A stretch of DNA of 64,000 bases, from positions 1 to 64,000 of the forward strand of contig SVBF01000018.1 in the NCBI GenBank assembly GCA_015058945.1. Reading direction: 5' to 3'. Each line of letters starts with the position of its first letter. Within the stretch, counting starts at the first letter, position 1. A program made the translations under genes and the position numbers. The notes beneath the pieces were generated by a model, which saw only the letters and a program-made list of their open reading frames with translations, made no database searches and had not been told where the DNA came from. Below are positions 56,302 through 63,999 of this stretch, piece after piece. Source of the stretch: Erysipelotrichaceae bacterium (GTDB lineage Bacteria > Bacillota_I > Bacilli_A > RFN20 > CAG-826).

Positions 56302-56327
56302 GCCGACCATATGGCCGGCTTTTTTCT
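56302..56327. terminator. terminator of rpmB, near the convergent operon end
   Basis: GCCGACCAT/ATGGCCGGC stem (one G-U) and TTTTTTC. It overlaps the 3' end of the convergent operon. Confidence 0.75.
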
Positions 56328-57016
56328 TACTTTAGGTTGAGGAGGAGGAATCCGAGTAGCCCCGCGATCGTCGAGACGAGGGAGAAGATCAAGGCCAGAT
56401 GTTCTGAGAAAGCGAGGACGAAGGGCTTCGGCCGATAGGTCGTCACGTTCCCCTGCTCGTCCATCGTGGAACGGAGTTCGCCCCAATGGGATAGCCTTGG
56501 GTTCACTAAAAGCAGGAAATGGATCGCGGCGAAGGCGACCATCGCGACGCAGAACCCTAGGGCCAAGGACGAATCCACCGGCATGAGGTTCGCAAAAGTC
56601 ACCGCACTCGAAGCCTCGGCGAGGACGCTAAGTCCGCTATAGGCGACATAGGCGAGCAAATGCTGCTTCGGGTTATAGGCGGAGATGAGGCCCAAGGCGA
56701 GCAAGGCCACGTTTTGGAGCACAAAGAACACGAGCACCACGATGGCCAAGGGCAAAAGGTAGGTATGCTTGTCCAAGGTGAGCAACAGATAGCTCCCGGC
56801 AAAAGCCGACGCGGCCAAATAGAAATAATAAGAAACGCGCGTGGCGTTCTTCGCCCCACTGCCGCCTTCAAGCATTTCATAAGGGAACATCGTGAGAAGG
56901 GAATAACGCTTCTTGTTTTCCTCTTTATATGCGTGCGCGCCTAGGAACCAGGTCAGCAAAAGGAACACGACCGGCGTGAGCGCAAGCAGCAAAAACCACG
57001 AAGCGGAGGGAGTCAT
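56327..57016 (-). CDS. polytopic membrane protein at operon end, unknown function
   Basis: A 229-residue protein with about six hydrophobic segments: about 6-27, 64-82, 89-112, 121-143, 148-175 and 205-227. A basic loop KEENKKRYSLLTMFPYE follows the first, and a hydrophilic loop (LRSTMDEQGNVTTYRPK) precedes the last. Its ATG overlaps the rpe stop (ATGA), so it is the last gene of the long priA-to-rpe operon. No family is recognised. Confidence 0.6.
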   Translation of the reverse strand: MTPSASWFLLLALTPVVFLLLTWFLGAHAYKEENKKRYSLLTMFPYEMLEGGSGAKNATRVSYYFYLAASAFAGSYLLLTLDKHTYLLPLAIVVLVFFVLQNVALLALGLISAYNPKQHLLAYVAYSGLSVLAEASSAVTFANLMPVDSSLALGFCVAMVAFAAIHFLLLVNPRLSHWGELRSTMDEQGNVTTYRPKPFVLAFSEHLALIFSLVSTIAGLLGFLLLNLK

Positions 57017-57678
57017 AGGTTCTTTAGGCCCTCCAGACGCTCGGCATAATCGTCATGGCCATATAAATAGGAACCCGCGACGAGCACGTCGGCCCCTTTC
57101 TCCACGACCAAGCGGCCGGTTTCATGATTGATGCCGCCATCGACCTCGAGGTAGACCCCACGACCCAAAGCGTCGATCTTCTTACGGCAATAGGCGATCT
57201 TTTCTAACGACCCTTCCATGAAGGCCTGTCCGCCTTTGCCCGGTTCGACCGACATGATGAGGACGAGATCGACCAAAGGGAAATAGGGATCCAAAACCTC
57301 GACTTTCGTCGCCGGTTTGATCGAAATGCCGACTTTGACGCCAAGCTTCCTTAGCCCTTCGATGCAATGAAGGCGTTCTTCCTCGGTTTCATAGGCTTCG
57401 TAATGGAAGGTGATGAGTTCGGCTCCTGCCTTTGCGAATCCTTCCGCGGCCGCCAAAGGTTCATAGACCATCAAATGGGCGTCGCGAAGCATCTTCCCGC
57501 AATAAGGGACGATACGGGCGACGGTTTCCGGACCAAAGGTCTTATTGGGGACGAAACGTCCGTCCATGACGTCGAGGTGGATGAAAGTCGCGCCGGCTTT
57601 GTCCATTTTGGCCACTTCGGCCTCTAGGACGGAAAAATCGGCGGAAAGGATGGATGGGGCGACGTTGACGCGACTCAT
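57013..57678 (-). CDS. rpe: ribulose-phosphate 3-epimerase
   Basis: Interconverts ribulose-5-phosphate and xylulose-5-phosphate in the pentose phosphate pathway. It has 221 residues of TIM-barrel type: NVAPSILSADFSVLEAEVAK, the metal-binding FIHLDVMDGRFVPNKTFGP, HLMVYEP, MSVEPGKGGQAFM and YLEVDGGINHET. I chose the ATG at 57678, overlapping the prkC stop (ATGA). In Bacillus rsgA lies between prkC and rpe; here it is absent from this spot. Confidence 0.97.
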   Translation of the reverse strand: MSRVNVAPSILSADFSVLEAEVAKMDKAGATFIHLDVMDGRFVPNKTFGPETVARIVPYCGKMLRDAHLMVYEPLAAAEGFAKAGAELITFHYEAYETEEERLHCIEGLRKLGVKVGISIKPATKVEVLDPYFPLVDLVLIMSVEPGKGGQAFMEGSLEKIAYCRKKIDALGRGVYLEVDGGINHETGRLVVEKGADVLVAGSYLYGHDDYAERLEGLKNL

Positions 57679-58547
57679 TTGAACCCAAAGAGCTTGCGCA
57701 GAAGCCCTTTCCTTTCCTTGAAGTTCTCGGTGTCGGACATCGCCTTGACGATGGCTTGGTTCATGTCCATGGCGGTGAGGAAGCGCTCCTCCGGCCTCTT
57801 GCGGCAAGCCATGATGGTGATCTTATCGATGGAACGGGGAATCGAAGGGACGATCTTGGAGGCTTCCGGCAGGCGCTTGCGCATCTGCTTCATCGCCACT
57901 TCCTCCACGTTTTGGCCGTCGAAGGGCACCTGCCCGGTCAAAAGTTCAAAGAAGATGACGCCCATTGAATAGATGTCGTTGCTGATCGCGACCGGGGCGC
58001 CCATGATCATCTCGGGGGCGCAGTAATAGATCGTGCCCTGGATGGAATCCGAATCGGACGAGAGGCCGATGGGGCTCGCGATGCCGAAATCAGAGATTTT
58101 AAGCGTGCCATCGGACATGTAGAAAAGGTTGTCGGGCTTCAGGTCGCGATGGACGATGCCGTGACGGTGGATATAATCCACGCCCGAAGTGAGTTGCAGC
58201 ATAACTTCGCAGGCGTCGTATAACGGCAAGGCGCCGGCGAAATTGAGTTTGTCGCGCAACGTCTGGCCACGGATGAACTCGTTGGCCATATACGGTCTTC
58301 CCTCGACCGTTCCCCTACCGAGGACGCGGACGATATTGGGGTGGTTCAAAGAAGCCGCGGCGGCGGTTTCGTTCATGAAACGGGAAACGTTTTCCTGATT
58401 GGCCATGAGTTCTTCCTTCATGACCTTGAGTGAGACGATGCGTCGTGAGATGAGATCGTTGGCTTCGTAGACATCGGCCATGCCCCCTGTGGCAATGCGG
58501 GAAACGATGCGGTAACGATCGTCGATCTTATCTCCGATTTTGATCAT
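57675..58547 (-). CDS. prkC: Hanks-type Ser/Thr kinase (PrkC kinase domain only)
   Basis: A 290-residue soluble kinase: glycine loop IVSRIATGGMADVYEA, ATP lysine in SLKVMKEEL, catalytic HRHGIVHRDLKPDNLF, DFGIASP and the activation-segment end GTIYYCAPEM. It stops about 20 residues after the kinase domain (ERKGLLRKLFGFK). The transmembrane helix and extracellular PASTA repeats of typical PrkC are missing, so it cannot sense cell-wall fragments that way. The start is ATG 58547, overlapping the phosphatase stop; an upstream frame to 58565 is rejected. Its partner is the phosphatase gene. Confidence 0.94.
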   Translation of the reverse strand: MIKIGDKIDDRYRIVSRIATGGMADVYEANDLISRRIVSLKVMKEELMANQENVSRFMNETAAAASLNHPNIVRVLGRGTVEGRPYMANEFIRGQTLRDKLNFAGALPLYDACEVMLQLTSGVDYIHRHGIVHRDLKPDNLFYMSDGTLKISDFGIASPIGLSSDSDSIQGTIYYCAPEMIMGAPVAISNDIYSMGVIFFELLTGQVPFDGQNVEEVAMKQMRKRLPEASKIVPSIPRSIDKITIMACRKRPEERFLTAMDMNQAIVKAMSDTENFKERKGLLRKLFGFK

Positions 58548-59287
58548 GATCGAACGGCCTCCCATAACGCGATTCCGATGTTGTCCGAGCCACCGTTGGC
58601 ATTGGCTTCCGCGATGAGCGAGGCGACTTTTTGGTCGGCGCGTTCGTCGGTGGCGAGCATCGCTCGGATCTCCGGTTCGGACACATTGTTATATAAGCCA
58701 TCGGAGCAAAGCATGATGGTCTCTCCGTGGTATGGCTTCACCATCAGATCGAGCGAACACGACGGGAAGATCCCTAGCGCGTTCATGAGCACGTGACGGT
58801 CGGGGGAAGAGCTCTTCTCCCGTTCCTGAATTTGACCGGAGCGATAGAGGTAATCGACATAGGTCTGGTCTTGGGTGAGACGGGTTAAGCCGGCCTCGCT
58901 ATAGGCATATGCCCTGGAGTCGCCCGCGTTGGCGATGATCATTTTCTTGCCCTGGATCAGCAAGGCGACGCAGGTTGTGCCCATATCGTGGTAGACGGGG
59001 TTATGCTCGGCTTCGTCGAAGATGGTCGCGTTGGCTTTCTTGAAGGCGCGCCGGAGCCACATCCGTGAGAGAAACGCGGGCATTTTCGGCTTCTTTTGGA
59101 ACGCCTCCACAAGGGTGTCCAACGCCATTTTCGACGCATAATCCCCCTTATTTTGGCCGCCCATGCCGTCGCAGACGACCATCAAAACCTCACCGTAATA
59201 GTTGGTGAGGACATAGGCTTGGTCCTCGTTGGAGACGCGGACTTTGCCAATATCGGTACGGGAGGCGAAATGACCTTTGAAATTCAT
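58544..59287 (-). CDS. stp: PP2C-type Ser/Thr phosphatase (Stp/PrpC)
   Basis: A 247-residue metal-dependent phosphatase that reverses PrkC phosphorylation: DIGKVRVSNEDQAYVL, VVCDGMGGQNKGDYAS, IANAGDSRAYAYSEAGLTRL, MLCSDGLYNNVSEPEI and GGSDNIGIALW, with all metal-binding Asp in place. It overlaps rlmN and prkC by 4 nt each. An extra basic stretch (FLSRMWLRRAFKKANATIF) at about 70-88 is a mild family variation. Confidence 0.96.
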   Translation of the reverse strand: MNFKGHFASRTDIGKVRVSNEDQAYVLTNYYGEVLMVVCDGMGGQNKGDYASKMALDTLVEAFQKKPKMPAFLSRMWLRRAFKKANATIFDEAEHNPVYHDMGTTCVALLIQGKKMIIANAGDSRAYAYSEAGLTRLTQDQTYVDYLYRSGQIQEREKSSSPDRHVLMNALGIFPSCSLDLMVKPYHGETIMLCSDGLYNNVSEPEIRAMLATDERADQKVASLIAEANANGGSDNIGIALWEAVRS

Positions 59288-60336
59288 TTGGTTTCCTCCG
59301 TGAGCACTTTGGAACGAAGTTGGCCGCAGGCGGCGTCGATGTCCCCGCCGAACTCCTTGCGGACGGTGGTGTTGATGCCTCGCTTCATCAAACGGTCGGC
59401 GAAGGCCTTGATCGCGCTTGAAGAGGCGCGGCGATACGGTTTTTCCTTAACTTCGTTATAAGGGATTAGGTTGACGTAAGCGAAGATGCCATAATGGTGG
59501 ATCAAATCGGCGAGTTCGTCGGCTTGGGCCAAGGAATCGTTCAGCCCACCGAGCATGATGTACTCAAACGTGACCCGACGCCCGGCGTTTTCCTCATAAT
59601 CCTTGACGGCCTCCATGAGGCGATCCATCGGATAGGCTTTGGAGATCGGCATGATCTGGTTGCGGATCTCATCGTTAGGCGCATGTAGGGAAATCGCGAG
59701 GTTGATCTGAATCCCCTCGTGACCGTATTTCTTGATGCCGTCGACCAAGCCGCAGGTCGAGACGGTGATGTGCCTCGCCCCGATCGCTAGGCCGAATTGG
59801 TCGTTCGCGGCCTTGATGAAGGACATGACGTTGTCATAGTTGTCGAAAGGCTCGCCGGTGCCCATGACGACGATGTGGGTGACTCTCCTGCCCCATTCGG
59901 CGAGGAGGTCGTTCATCACGAGGAGCTCGCCCATCATCTCGGCGCTGCTCAGGTTGCGGGTGCGGCGATGGAGTCCAGAGGCGCAGAAAGCGCAGCCCAT
60001 GTTGCAGCCAACCTGCGAGGAAACGCAGATCGCGTCGCCATAGTTATAGGGCATCAAGACAGTCTCGACCTTCGCCCCGTCTTCCATTTCGACGAGGAGT
60101 TTGATCGTGCCGTCGCTGGAATCCTGACGGGTGTGGATCTTGGGAAGGTCAAGGCAATAGTCGCGGTTTAGCAATGCGCGAAAATCCTTGGAGATGTCGG
60201 TCATTTCGTCGAAGGAAAGGACGCGCTTTTGGTAAACCCAGGTAAACACTTGTTTGGCGCGGTATTTGGTCTGACCTAAAGAAACGAATTCTTCGGTCAT
60301 CTGGGATAAAGTGTAACCGAGTAAATTCTTTTTCAT
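59284..60336 (-). CDS. rlmN: 23S rRNA/tRNA A2503/A37 C2-methyltransferase RlmN
   Basis: A radical-SAM enzyme methylating A2503 of 23S rRNA and A37 of some tRNAs. It has 350 residues with the 4Fe-4S motif CNMGCAFC (C111, C115, C118) and the second catalytic Cys near residue 338 (GGDIDAACGQL). GTGEPFDNYDNVMSFI and ISLHAPNDEIRNQIMPIS are typical. Its start overlaps the preceding stop by one base (TAATG). The gene is fully intact next to its degenerate neighbour. Confidence 0.97.
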   Translation of the reverse strand: MKKNLLGYTLSQMTEEFVSLGQTKYRAKQVFTWVYQKRVLSFDEMTDISKDFRALLNRDYCLDLPKIHTRQDSSDGTIKLLVEMEDGAKVETVLMPYNYGDAICVSSQVGCNMGCAFCASGLHRRTRNLSSAEMMGELLVMNDLLAEWGRRVTHIVVMGTGEPFDNYDNVMSFIKAANDQFGLAIGARHITVSTCGLVDGIKKYGHEGIQINLAISLHAPNDEIRNQIMPISKAYPMDRLMEAVKDYEENAGRRVTFEYIMLGGLNDSLAQADELADLIHHYGIFAYVNLIPYNEVKEKPYRRASSSAIKAFADRLMKRGINTTVRKEFGGDIDAACGQLRSKVLTEETK

Positions 60337-61676
60337 TATTTGGATGAGGCTTGGGGTGCGGAGGCGGTTTGGGTCGCCGGGGCGATGGCGGTGATGTCGG
60401 CGAAAGCCGGCGGGATGGTGAGCTCACGCTCGCCCTTCAAAAGTTCGGCGACGTAAGCGGCGGTCTCATATTCCTCATGCGGGAAGTACTGCTTCTCGGA
60501 GACGAGGGAGAATTCGGGGTGGATTTTCAGGAACTCGGCGACGTTCTGATGGCCTTCCTTCTTGGAGATGGTGTAGATGATGTAAAGGAGGGTGCCACCT
60601 TGCTCGACGTATTTGGCCGCCCCTTCGAGGGCTTTCTTTTCGCCATCGATGATCGAATCCATGGATTGGGTATCGAAATGGAGCAGGTAGTCCGGGGTGG
60701 TCGGAATGAGGTCGAAGCCCGTCGATTTGGGCGAGCAGACGACGAGTTTTTGCATCGAGGAAACCGCCGCCTCCATGGAGAGGACGTCCGGGGCGGAGAA
60801 ATAGTTCACATTGTGAAGTTCCTTGTCCTGGATCAATTTGATGACTTCCGGCTTGGCGTCGGTGTCCGGGGTGGCAAGGTTTAATCCGACCTTGGCGCCG
60901 TAGGTCTCGATGAGTTCACGTTCCAAGGAGGAATCCTCGTTGCCGTTATAGAGGAGGATTTCGCTCGGCTCGGAAACCGGGTGTTCGTCGAGGATGGCTT
61001 TGGTGAGCATCTTTTCGCCGAAGAGGAGTCCCTTCTTGTATTCGGGGATCTTGCGGAGAGGAACGCTTCCTTTATAGAAGACGATGCCGTTGACGGGGGA
61101 GGCGCTGAAATCCGCGTTCTCGAAAAGTGAGGCGAGGCCTAACGCGGAAGTGCGGACGCGAAGCGTGGTCGTCGCGGGGCGGGCGAATTTGCGTAACGCC
61201 TGATAAGTATTGCTGCCACCGAAATGGGCCATGATCTTGACGGTCCATTCGGGAACGTTGAAGCGAAGTGAGAGATAGAGGTGGCTCTTGCGGTCGACTT
61301 CGGCGGGGATGTAATTCTCCGGGGTCGAGGCCAAATCGAAGAGATTCTGGACGGAGGCGAGTTTCTCTTCGCCGACTTTCTCCAAGAGACTCTTCTTCGT
61401 CTCTTCGACGTCAAAGCGACGATAGAAATAGGCATTGGCCAAGACGAGGCAAAGCAGACGGCGCTCGTCATTGCCCCAACCCTCGAGCTTACGGGTCATG
61501 TATTCGAAATAGATGTGATGACGGAGCTCGCATCCGACGAGTCCGGCGACCTGTCCGCGGAAGGGACGGATGTCGACGTTGTTCTTAAACAGATCGCGCA
61601 AGGCGTCGGCGAAGGGTTTCTTTTTGTCGATGACCTCGTCGAGAACGGCGAGGGATAATTCAAATTCCTTGATCAT
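60336..61676 (-). CDS. RsmB-like protein lacking catalytic residues
   Basis: A 446-residue protein where rsmB is expected (between priA and rlmN). The N-terminal NusB-like helical domain (LSLAVLDEVIDKKKPFADAL, LVLANAYFYRR) and the general RsmB length are kept. The methyltransferase domain has lost its signatures. SAM motif I (DxCAAPGGKT) is LLYNGNEDSS at about 241-250. The PCSG segment reads VVCSPKSTG at about 312-320. The second catalytic Cys segment (STCT) is IIYT at about 366-369. The C terminus is Ala/Thr/Gln-rich. It is therefore probably a non-catalytic RNA-binding protein. TTGGAGG precedes the ATG. Confidence 0.7.
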   Translation of the reverse strand: MIKEFELSLAVLDEVIDKKKPFADALRDLFKNNVDIRPFRGQVAGLVGCELRHHIYFEYMTRKLEGWGNDERRLLCLVLANAYFYRRFDVEETKKSLLEKVGEEKLASVQNLFDLASTPENYIPAEVDRKSHLYLSLRFNVPEWTVKIMAHFGGSNTYQALRKFARPATTTLRVRTSALGLASLFENADFSASPVNGIVFYKGSVPLRKIPEYKKGLLFGEKMLTKAILDEHPVSEPSEILLYNGNEDSSLERELIETYGAKVGLNLATPDTDAKPEVIKLIQDKELHNVNYFSAPDVLSMEAAVSSMQKLVVCSPKSTGFDLIPTTPDYLLHFDTQSMDSIIDGEKKALEGAAKYVEQGGTLLYIIYTISKKEGHQNVAEFLKIHPEFSLVSEKQYFPHEEYETAAYVAELLKGERELTIPPAFADITAIAPATQTASAPQASSK

Positions 61677-61694
61677 AAACGTACCTCCAAGAAA

Positions 61695-62243
61695 TCAGTT
61701 TTTGTTTTTGCGGCTTTCCTCGTAACGCTCCTCAAAACCTTCAAAGGCGTTTCCGAGGTAAATGTCCGTCTCGCTTTCTTCGTGATGATGGTGGTGATGC
61801 TCCTCGCATTCCTCGTCATCACATTCGTCCTCCTCCCCTTCCATGAGGTCCGGGACGTCGCCGAATTCCATCGAGGCGGCGTCATCGCGGATCTCGTTGG
61901 TGGTGATGAAGCGCGGATATTCTTTGTTCACATAGGAGTAACGAGATTCCTCATCATAATATTCGAAGACGACCTCGACGTTGATGGAATAGACCGAAAG
62001 CGTCTTGAGGATGTAGTCCGCGACGCCCTTTTCCATGACGCGATACTTCTTCGGGGCGAGGATTTTCACCAAGGTGTTCCAACTCGTCTGCTCGACGCCG
62101 TTATGGAACATCATCGCGTTGGGCGCGTAAAAAGAAACATCGTCTTCCGAGCACTCGAAAAGCTGGGCGATGTTTCCGCCGCTCTCCCTGGAATATCGGC
62201 CGACCACGAACTGGTCTAGGCCGAGGACTTGAATCGTAATCAT
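61695..62243 (-). CDS. DUF1904-like protein with acidic and His-rich tail
   Basis: A 182-residue protein. Residues 1-110 (ITIQVLGLDQFVVGRYSRES, LFECSEDDVSFYAPNAMMF, GVADYILKTLSVYSINVEVV) match the pattern of DUF1904, a small tautomerase-like fold. Residues 130-160 are very acidic and include GEEDECDDEECEEHHHHHHE, a natural run of six histidines that could bind Zn or Ni. The start is ATG 62243 with GAGAGG upstream. It occupies the place of def and fmt in Bacillus. Function is unknown. Confidence 0.55.
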   Translation of the reverse strand: MITIQVLGLDQFVVGRYSRESGGNIAQLFECSEDDVSFYAPNAMMFHNGVEQTSWNTLVKILAPKKYRVMEKGVADYILKTLSVYSINVEVVFEYYDEESRYSYVNKEYPRFITTNEIRDDAASMEFGDVPDLMEGEEDECDDEECEEHHHHHHEESETDIYLGNAFEGFEERYEESRKNKN

Positions 62244-62289: not shown

Positions 62290-63999
62290 TCAGTAATCGA
62301 GGGGGTCCACGTCACATTCGATGTCGACGCCGCCTTTGCCGGATAAGGCGTGGATCAGATCGCCGAGGTAAGGTTTGATTTCGGCCGGGTTTCTGGTCTT
62401 GATCAAAACGAGCCGACGGTGCTTTTCGGCGAGGAAGGAAATATAAGGCACGATCGGGCCGAGGCAGATCGATTCGGGGAACTGCCGTTCGATGTTCTCG
62501 CGGAACTCAACAGAGGCGCGAACGCAGCGCTCCTCGTCCTTCGCGGCGAACTTCAACGCGATGAGGAAAACGTAGGGAGGGAAGCGGGTGATTTTCCGTT
62601 GCTGCATCTCCTTTTGATAGAAGGCCTCATAGTCTTGTTTCGCCCCTAGGCTGACCGCGTAATGGAACGGGTTATAGGATTGGATCAAGGCGTCGCCGGT
62701 CTTCTCTCCCCTGCCACTTCGACCGACCGCCTGAGTGATCAAGCCAAACGTCGTTTCCGCGGCGCGGTAGGAGGGCTGGGAAAGGCCGATATCCGCCAAA
62801 ACGAGGCCGACCAAAGTTACGTTTGGGAAGTCATGGCCTTTGGCGATCATCTGCGTCCCGACGAGGATGTCATATTCGAAATTACGGAATTCTTGCAAGG
62901 TTTTCGCCACCTTTTTGCGGACTTTTCCGACGTCGCTGTCGAGTCTTCCGATGCGCGCTTCGGGCAGATATTCGTTGAGGACTTTGACGATGCGTTCCGT
63001 GCCGAAGCCAACCCTCATGATCTTTTCTTTGCCACATTCGGGACAATGGTCCGGATAGGCTTCGACATAACCGCAATGATGGCACTTGAGCAGTTCGTCC
63101 TCCCGGTGGTAGGTCAGGTTTCCATGGCAATTGGGGCAGGTGAAAATGTGACCGCAGTTGCCGCAGGTGACATAAGAGCTATAGCCGCGGCGGTTGATGA
63201 GCAAGATGACCTGTTCTTTCCGCTGCAGGCGTTGTTTGATCGCGTCGATGAGGACTTTGGAGAACACCCGGTCCCCCGGCATCATGATTTTGCGGTCCCT
63301 CAAGTCGATGATGGTGGTCTTGGGCAGGCCCTTTTCATTGATGCGCTTTTTGAGTTCGGCGTAACCATAGACGCCCTTCATCGCCCTGGCCTTTGTCTCG
63401 AAGGAAGGGGTCGCCGAGCCGAGGACGACTTTCGCGCCGAAATGTTTGCCGCGCATGATGGCGACTTCCCGGGCATGGTAATAAGGGAGGTTATCTTGTT
63501 TATAGGATTCGACGTGTTCTTCGTCGAGGATGATGAGACCGATGTTTTTTAACGGGGCGAAGACGGCCGAACGGGCGCCGACGACGACCCTGGCGTCTCC
63601 CCTAGCGATGCGGCGGTATTCGTCATACTTCTCCGCGGGGGTGAGCTCACTATGAAGGATCGCGACGTTGCCCTCGAAGCGACGGGAGAAATACTCGACC
63701 ATGATCGGGGTGAGCGAAATCTCGGGCACGAGCATGAGGATGTTTTTGCCTTGGGAAAGGATTTCTTCGCTGAGCTTCAGGTAGACTTCGGTTTTCCCGG
63801 AGCCCGTGACGCCTTGGAGCAAAACGACCTCTTTGTCGTTATGGAGGATGTTCTCCACCGCTTCTTTTTGGGCGATAGTGAGTTCACGGGGTTTCTGTTC
63901 CTTCTCGTATTCGGGGATGAGAAAGCGTTCCTTCTCTTTTTTGACGAAGCGGATCTTCCCGTGTTTTCGAAGTGCGTTGGCAATCGAATCCGACCCCAC
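62290..63999 (-). CDS. priA: primosomal protein N' (replication restart helicase PriA), C-terminal part
   Basis: Restarts replication at collapsed forks. The window holds 569 residues; the start lies beyond 63999. Helicase motifs: LLQGVTGSGKTEVYLKL (Walker A), LIILDEEH (Walker B as DEEH), VLGSATPSFETK and VGTQMIAKGHDFPNVTLVGL. The paired zinc sites lie between (CGNCGHIFTCPNCHGN; CHHCGYVEAYPDHCPECG). The C-terminal domain ends VDIECDVDPLDY. It is the first visible gene of the operon running to 56327. Confidence 0.96.
   Translation of the reverse strand: MGSDSIANALRKHGKIRFVKKEKERFLIPEYEKEQKPRELTIAQKEAVENILHNDKEVVLLQGVTGSGKTEVYLKLSEEILSQGKNILMLVPEISLTPIMVEYFSRRFEGNVAILHSELTPAEKYDEYRRIARGDARVVVGARSAVFAPLKNIGLIILDEEHVESYKQDNLPYYHAREVAIMRGKHFGAKVVLGSATPSFETKARAMKGVYGYAELKKRINEKGLPKTTIIDLRDRKIMMPGDRVFSKVLIDAIKQRLQRKEQVILLINRRGYSSYVTCGNCGHIFTCPNCHGNLTYHREDELLKCHHCGYVEAYPDHCPECGKEKIMRVGFGTERIVKVLNEYLPEARIGRLDSDVGKVRKKVAKTLQEFRNFEYDILVGTQMIAKGHDFPNVTLVGLVLADIGLSQPSYRAAETTFGLITQAVGRSGRGEKTGDALIQSYNPFHYAVSLGAKQDYEAFYQKEMQQRKITRFPPYVFLIALKFAAKDEERCVRASVEFRENIERQFPESICLGPIVPYISFLAEKHRRLVLIKTRNPAEIKPYLGDLIHALSGKGGVDIECDVDPLDY

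Follow-up and report, generated by a model that had tools for sequence, protein, structure and literature searches.

A lineage-wide RsmB homologue without catalytic motifs, kept in the priA-rlmN operon of Bacilli: a possible methylation-free helper of 30S assembly

Introduction

It has proved difficult to say what preserves rRNA methyltransferases: the methyl group they add, or the binding of the protein to the assembling subunit. To our knowledge, the closest functional parallels to the bacterial protein described here are mitochondrial. One of these, METTL17, presumably belongs to a different family from our protein, and the partner of the other, MTERF4, has what we take to be a different fold from that of u206, the neighbouring gene product discussed below. 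METTL17 (Rsm22) is described as an assembly factor of the mitochondrial small subunit with a methyltransferase (MTase) fold, which does not methylate the region it contacts, whose activity is proposed to have been lost and whose role is proposed to be structural; it keeps the typical features of class I SAM-dependent MTases (PMC10790355), which our protein has lost. For our protein an assembly role would be drawn by analogy. NSUN4, a member of the m5C-MTase family that acts on the mitoribosome with the unrelated partner MTERF4, is reported to have an assembly task separate from, and independent of, methylation (PMC3916286). It is a structural neighbour of our model and is catalytically active, unlike our protein, for which u206 is a candidate partner.

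In bacteria, RsmB (Fmu; E. coli structures 1sqf and 1sqg) makes m5C967 in 16S rRNA and consists of a NusB-like domain, a linker and an MTase domain. The E. coli ΔrsmB strain is reported to accumulate the 17S precursor, and RsmB to act on an early 30S intermediate; the authors suggest that RsmB accelerates assembly or keeps misassembly from occurring (PMC7056703). The 17S phenotype could result from the lost methylation and not from the lost protein. The clade described below would separate the two naturally, since its RsmB has apparently lost the chemistry while the target base and a selected protein are kept.

Results and Discussion

On the minus strand, the window (the whole 64,000 nt stretch of DNA analysed) carries the gene order priA, u206, dead rsmB, rlmN, prpC, prkC and rpe, where "dead" is our shorthand for RsmB homologues that lack the catalytic motifs and "active" for those that keep them. 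The dead rsmB frame (60336..61676, minus strand, a strand left unstated in the preliminary description) has 446 codons, begins with ATG and is preceded at 7 nt by the Shine-Dalgarno sequence GGAGG (61684..61688, minus strand); it is indeed as long and as well initiated as had been claimed. Its stop codon overlaps the start of rlmN (59284..60336, minus strand) in the sequence TAATG. Upstream lie u206 (61695..62243, minus strand) and a frame which we take to be priA (62290..63999, minus strand), a name that follows the preliminary description, with translation and synteny as its basis; this frame extends past the window edge. The dead gene occupies the syntenic place of active rsmB beside rlmN-prpC-prkC, and the order priA...rsmB-rlmN-prpC-prkC is common to both, in agreement with the conserved operon position noted earlier. 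A chance ORF or an assembly error was ruled out by matches in all 30 congeners sampled; among all genomes searched, 52 of 61 gave a match.

Sequence profiles score the dead protein weakly, at 18.4 bits for PF01189 (cut-off 27) and 53.2 bits for the NCBIfam RsmB model PRK14902 (cut-off 319). The closest solved structures to its AF2 model (mean pLDDT 90.3) are E. coli Fmu/RsmB 1sqf, followed by 1sqg. The match to 1sqf (Foldseek E 3.9e-21; VIA Z 34.0, rmsd 3.9, 397 aligned residues, 12% identity) spans model residues 2-415 and takes in the NusB-like N-terminal domain and the MTase domain at full length. Because the structure matches end to end, we count the protein, by its predicted fold, as a full-length RsmB, and its homology to RsmB/Fmu rests on both profile HMMs and structure. 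The modelled NusB-like domain (residues 1-125; 61302..61676, minus strand) is invisible to the Pfam NusB profile, unlike that of RsmB/Fmu; in nearly all dead-lineage genomes this profile matches a separate NusB gene only. NusB matches were present in 45/45 genomes searched, the dead-lineage copy having a frame of its own, roughly 130-180 aa long, which rules out the dead RsmB as a NusB substitute.

All three catalytic motifs are degenerate, exactly where the preliminary description had placed them, as an alignment with active Bacilli homologues confirmed. Motif I, the SAM loop, reads LLYNGNEDSS (residues 241-250; 60927..60956, minus strand) in place of DMCAAPG.K, motif IV reads VVCSPKSTG (residues 312-320; 60717..60743, minus strand) in place of LLDAPCSGxG, and motif VI reads IIYT (residues 366-369; 60570..60581, minus strand) in place of STCT, so that the catalytic cysteine is Tyr368. 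Merging identical C-termini left 157 sequences; the final tally, which includes rows from loci fetched later, comprises 135 dead and 42 active rows, with each column counted over the rows that have a residue there. The catalytic cysteine of motif VI (column 368) occurs in 0/131 dead rows versus 42/42 active ones, and the same holds for Asp242 of the motif I consensus DxCAAPGxK (0/133 versus 42/42), Asp269 of motif II (0/132 versus 42/42) and Asp315 of motif IV (0/132 versus 42/42). Remnants are few: Gly249 is left in 15/132 dead rows and Asp297 in 36/130, and Cys318 of motif IV, a serine in the window protein, is found in 7/132, none of which also has Cys368. Judged from this alignment, the dead RsmB has lost its SAM site along with both cysteines. 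A frameshift or another alignment that would restore the cysteines was rejected, with intact frames in independent genomes and no dead sequence that has both. Together with the operon context, these counts strongly support the central claim of the preliminary description, a catalytically dead RsmB homologue kept between priA and rlmN.

The dead state extends well beyond that description: it is ancient and common to three family-level groups. In the window's order, groups f1, f3 and f5 have the dead form and f2, f6, f7 and f8 the active one, and RsmB is active in all the other class-level families sampled. Most relatives that have names are Bacilli assembled from rumen and gut metagenomes, including Candidatus Alloenteromonas pullicola and pullistercoris; the same genome may occur in our sample under a genome handle and as a named record. 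In a tree of 103 rows, the dead set forms one side of a single branch (1 change, SH-aLRT 100), and a tree of 75 rows with the motif columns removed again gave a single branch (1 change, SH-aLRT 100); both were quick, unrooted trees. For the larger one, the partial rows L105, L124 and L128 were dropped and f1-type rows were thinned at 55% identity; for the smaller one, the long-branch rows L035 and L175 were dropped and f1-type rows were randomly sampled to 25. In the set designated A2, L113 (internal stop) and three further rows were left out. Given the single branch and the active enzymes in outside families, a single, ancient loss of activity in an ancestor of f1, f3 and f5 is probable. We found no report of a dead RsmB in the open-access literature searched; the protein is a lineage-wide pseudoenzyme, an RsmB homologue that does not pass as the enzyme by profile score or by motif. 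Annotation pipelines must not count such an ORF as an m5C967 enzyme.

The gene is absent in places. No credible dead RsmB was found in the four genomes of genus g6 searched (G035, G089, G110 and G127) or in G062, and the dead-RsmB profile gave no credible RsmB in the four sampled f4 genomes. In G035, u206 directly adjoins rlmN (locus L243, 2465-4381), and genus g6 seems to have deleted dead rsmB; with u206 beside rlmN and no dead RsmB found there, at least one line can do without the protein. One scan of viral contigs revealed no viral relatives.

Elsewhere, the dead RsmB is evidently under purifying selection, as the dN/dS check proposed for it indicates: in close pairs, the median NG86 omega was 0.090 (25 pairs), and by part it was 0.096 for the N-terminal and 0.077 for the MTase portion (32 pairs each). 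Values for the same loci were 0.036 for rlmN, 0.048 for priA, 0.046 for prkC, 0.081 for prpC and 0.123 for u206, all of them rough, since NG86 is a simple method and dS was high for some pairs. The dead proteins have also become acidic (median pI 5.96 versus 8.02 for active RsmB; net charge per 100 aa -1.43 versus +0.48), with no acidic shift in the rlmN products of the same loci, and this argues against unchanged RNA binding. Furthermore, they have conserved positions of their own, including Arg52, His53, Asn140 and Phe321. The stretch GCELRHH (residues 48-54; 61515..61535, minus strand) is conserved in the dead clade and differs in active RsmB, and in LSLRFNVPEW (residues 135-144; 61245..61274, minus strand) P142 and W144 are common to dead and active proteins and N140 is specific to the dead clade. 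Such positions are less readily explained by plain decay than by a change of binding partner.

The reading that we prefer, at a rough probability of one half, is that of an ancient pseudo-RsmB that helps early 30S assembly without methylation. SAM binding and catalysis would have disappeared from RsmB, in the simplest case a single time, in the common ancestor of f1, f3 and f5, a large group of uncultured Bacilli, and in most descendants purifying selection would have maintained the protein at full length. It would still bind at h31, in pre-16S rRNA or in the assembling 30S head, hold this region and then leave, with no m5C967 made. Both the binding to 16S rRNA or the 30S subunit and the assembly role are proposed by analogy with E. 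coli RsmB, METTL17 and NSUN4. An assembly role would fit the 17S phenotype published for E. coli ΔrsmB as well as the conserved fold, synteny and constraint of the dead protein. The lack of the protein in g6 and G062, the acidic shift relative to active RsmB and the strong divergence of the NusB-like domain speak against this reading. The preliminary description had offered an RNA-binding assembly factor or loss of the C967 modification, and the two readings are not exclusive. For probing in E. coli whether RsmB has a role apart from methylation, the dead clade supplies a ready set of sequences.

The gene directly upstream brings in a second reading, in which the dead RsmB would be a protein scaffold that forms a two-protein unit with u206 and whose task need not be at h31; a subunit from the MTase family paired with an unrelated protein would be reminiscent of NSUN4-MTERF4. 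The u206 product (182 aa) combines a DUF1904/MIF-like fold with an acidic, His-rich tail: the model of residues 1-106 matches the DUF1904 structure 4m1a (Z 14.5, 103 aligned residues), which by structure gives it the tautomerase-like (MIF-like) fold. Its core is therefore like that of DUF1904 proteins (PF08921; 4m1a, 1u9d), from which it differs in scoring only 13.2 bits against PF08921, below the Pfam cut-off of 24.1, and in the extra acidic tail, which ends in a conserved motif (consensus IYLGDAFEGFE). It starts with Met-Ile, not Met-Pro, and is without the N-terminal proline that we take to be typical of tautomerases. u206 was present in 29/29 dead-lineage genomes and in 0/27 others, and it stood directly 5' of dead rsmB in 89 of the 91 loci with room upstream (94 dead loci, less L074, L083 and L128, which were set aside as lacking upstream sequence), versus 0/42 active loci. 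At L103:2-1984 (contig CASEWT010000020.1), a deletion that takes out the stop codon of u206 together with the Shine-Dalgarno sequence of rsmB has left a single 661-aa frame for u206 and the dead RsmB. The loss of positive charge and the clade-specific residues R52, H53, N140 and F321 would also suit a scaffold. Against this, the co-occurrence amounts to one phylogenetic event, u206 marking the same ancestor as the activity loss, and the fusion is a single case near the end of a metagenome-assembled contig, with the close relatives L101, L104 and L105 unfused. Moreover, where synteny broke, in G040 and G073, u206 stayed with priA while dead rsmB lies elsewhere, and u206 persists in G035, where dead rsmB was not found; these three genomes weaken the idea of a strict partnership. 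u206 is a candidate partner of the dead RsmB, yet it may belong with priA, and we consider the scaffold rather unlikely, if a serious contender.

The 30S GTPase RsgA had no match of RsgA strength in 13 of the 25 dead genomes (four genomes of the window's genus, g42, g30, g36, g38, g44, g51 and one from f5) and was present in 13/13 active ones; G051 has RsgA. In the window itself, prkC and rpe have no RsgA between them (57013-58565). One could imagine a two-protein, methylation-free 30S module, made of the pseudo-RsmB and the MIF-fold protein, that replaced the RsmB step, with RsgA partly lost later. This is a speculative extension to which we give little credence; if it were true, bacteria would have their own equivalent of NSUN4-MTERF4 or of METTL17, and small-subunit assembly would look as if rewired.

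The genomes were also searched for another RsmB-type enzyme. Among 25 dead genomes, exactly one strong PF01189 match (>125 bits) was found in 22 and none in 3 (G022, G068 and G073), versus two or more in 11/13 active genomes. The 17 of these 22 copies whose loci were fetched are all built like RsmF, their MTase domain lying in the N-terminal half, and the RsmF-type copy of the window's genome carries the RsmF PUA-like domain. Profile search and locus architecture thus revealed no second RsmB in the 25 dead-lineage genomes. The base itself is kept: C967 was found in 47 of 48 h31 placements, and the 16S of the window's own genome has it too; the search pattern had fixed flanking bases and hit a 16S in 47 of 196 f1 genomes, the majority giving no match. 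Loss of the target base as a general cause was ruled out on this ground. With the wider, order-level pattern, 47 of 169 genomes matched, again with one A967; that set holds one active-family genome (G044) and therefore allows no comparison of dead with active. The sole A967 among the placements lies at G195:C4:67697-67726 (GATACACG), in a genome that still carries the dead RsmB (L262). At the next position, a change from A968 to U is common, though not universal, in f1.

With the target C retained and no further RsmB-type enzyme found, m5C967 is probably missing, unless RsmF took over, and it is in this sense that we infer an unmethylated state. The exception deserves weighing: an RsmF-type paralogue of widened specificity might still methylate C967, with the dead RsmB as its guide or simply redundant. 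It would draw on the one catalytic RsmF-type protein with a strong match in 22/25 dead genomes, on the conserved C967 and on Thermus RsmF, which is multi-site going by the titles of structure entries 3m6v and 3m6w. We find it doubtful, for the three genomes named above are also without a strong RsmF match, and m5C967 is dispensable elsewhere, with RsmB reported absent from several Mollicutes groups (PMC4014445).

The neighbouring m2G966 also belongs to h31. It is made by RsmD, which was at full strength in 36/39 genomes, including 22/25 dead ones, and this rules out a joint loss of h31 modification. The exceptions were G000, G086 and G055. The first is the window's own genome (92% complete); the three congeners sampled have a full-strength RsmD, and its absence here may be an assembly gap.

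Another possibility is that the dead RsmB retains chemistry, its SAM site being altered or a different ligand being used, or that its true cysteines were misaligned. The model shows an intact Rossmann-like domain, and Glu374 (130/130), Thr369 (129/130) and Tyr365 (128/131), around the former active site, hardly vary in the dead rows; Gly361 (130/131) is kept as well. Yet Asp242, Asp269, Asp315 and Cys368 are gone wherever a dead sequence can be scored at the position, the loop that replaces the SAM motif varies across the clade, and no sequence has both cysteines, which makes this possibility very improbable next to a methylation-free helper. Least probable of all is a relic held in place by translational coupling to rlmN or by the polar effect of its deletion, for which the TAATG overlap, the strong ribosome-binding site and the lineages without dead RsmB might be adduced: coupling leaves the amino-acid sequence unconstrained, so a relic would not show a median omega of about 0.09 in both of its parts, nor does it accord with full-length frames, residues near-invariant over three families and a fold predicted with high confidence.

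Beyond the cluster, the minus strand of the window encodes a 229-aa protein (56327-57016), which gave nothing above cut-off in Pfam or NCBIfam and whose hydrophobic stretches suggest a membrane protein. Many related loci have a relative of it downstream of the cluster.
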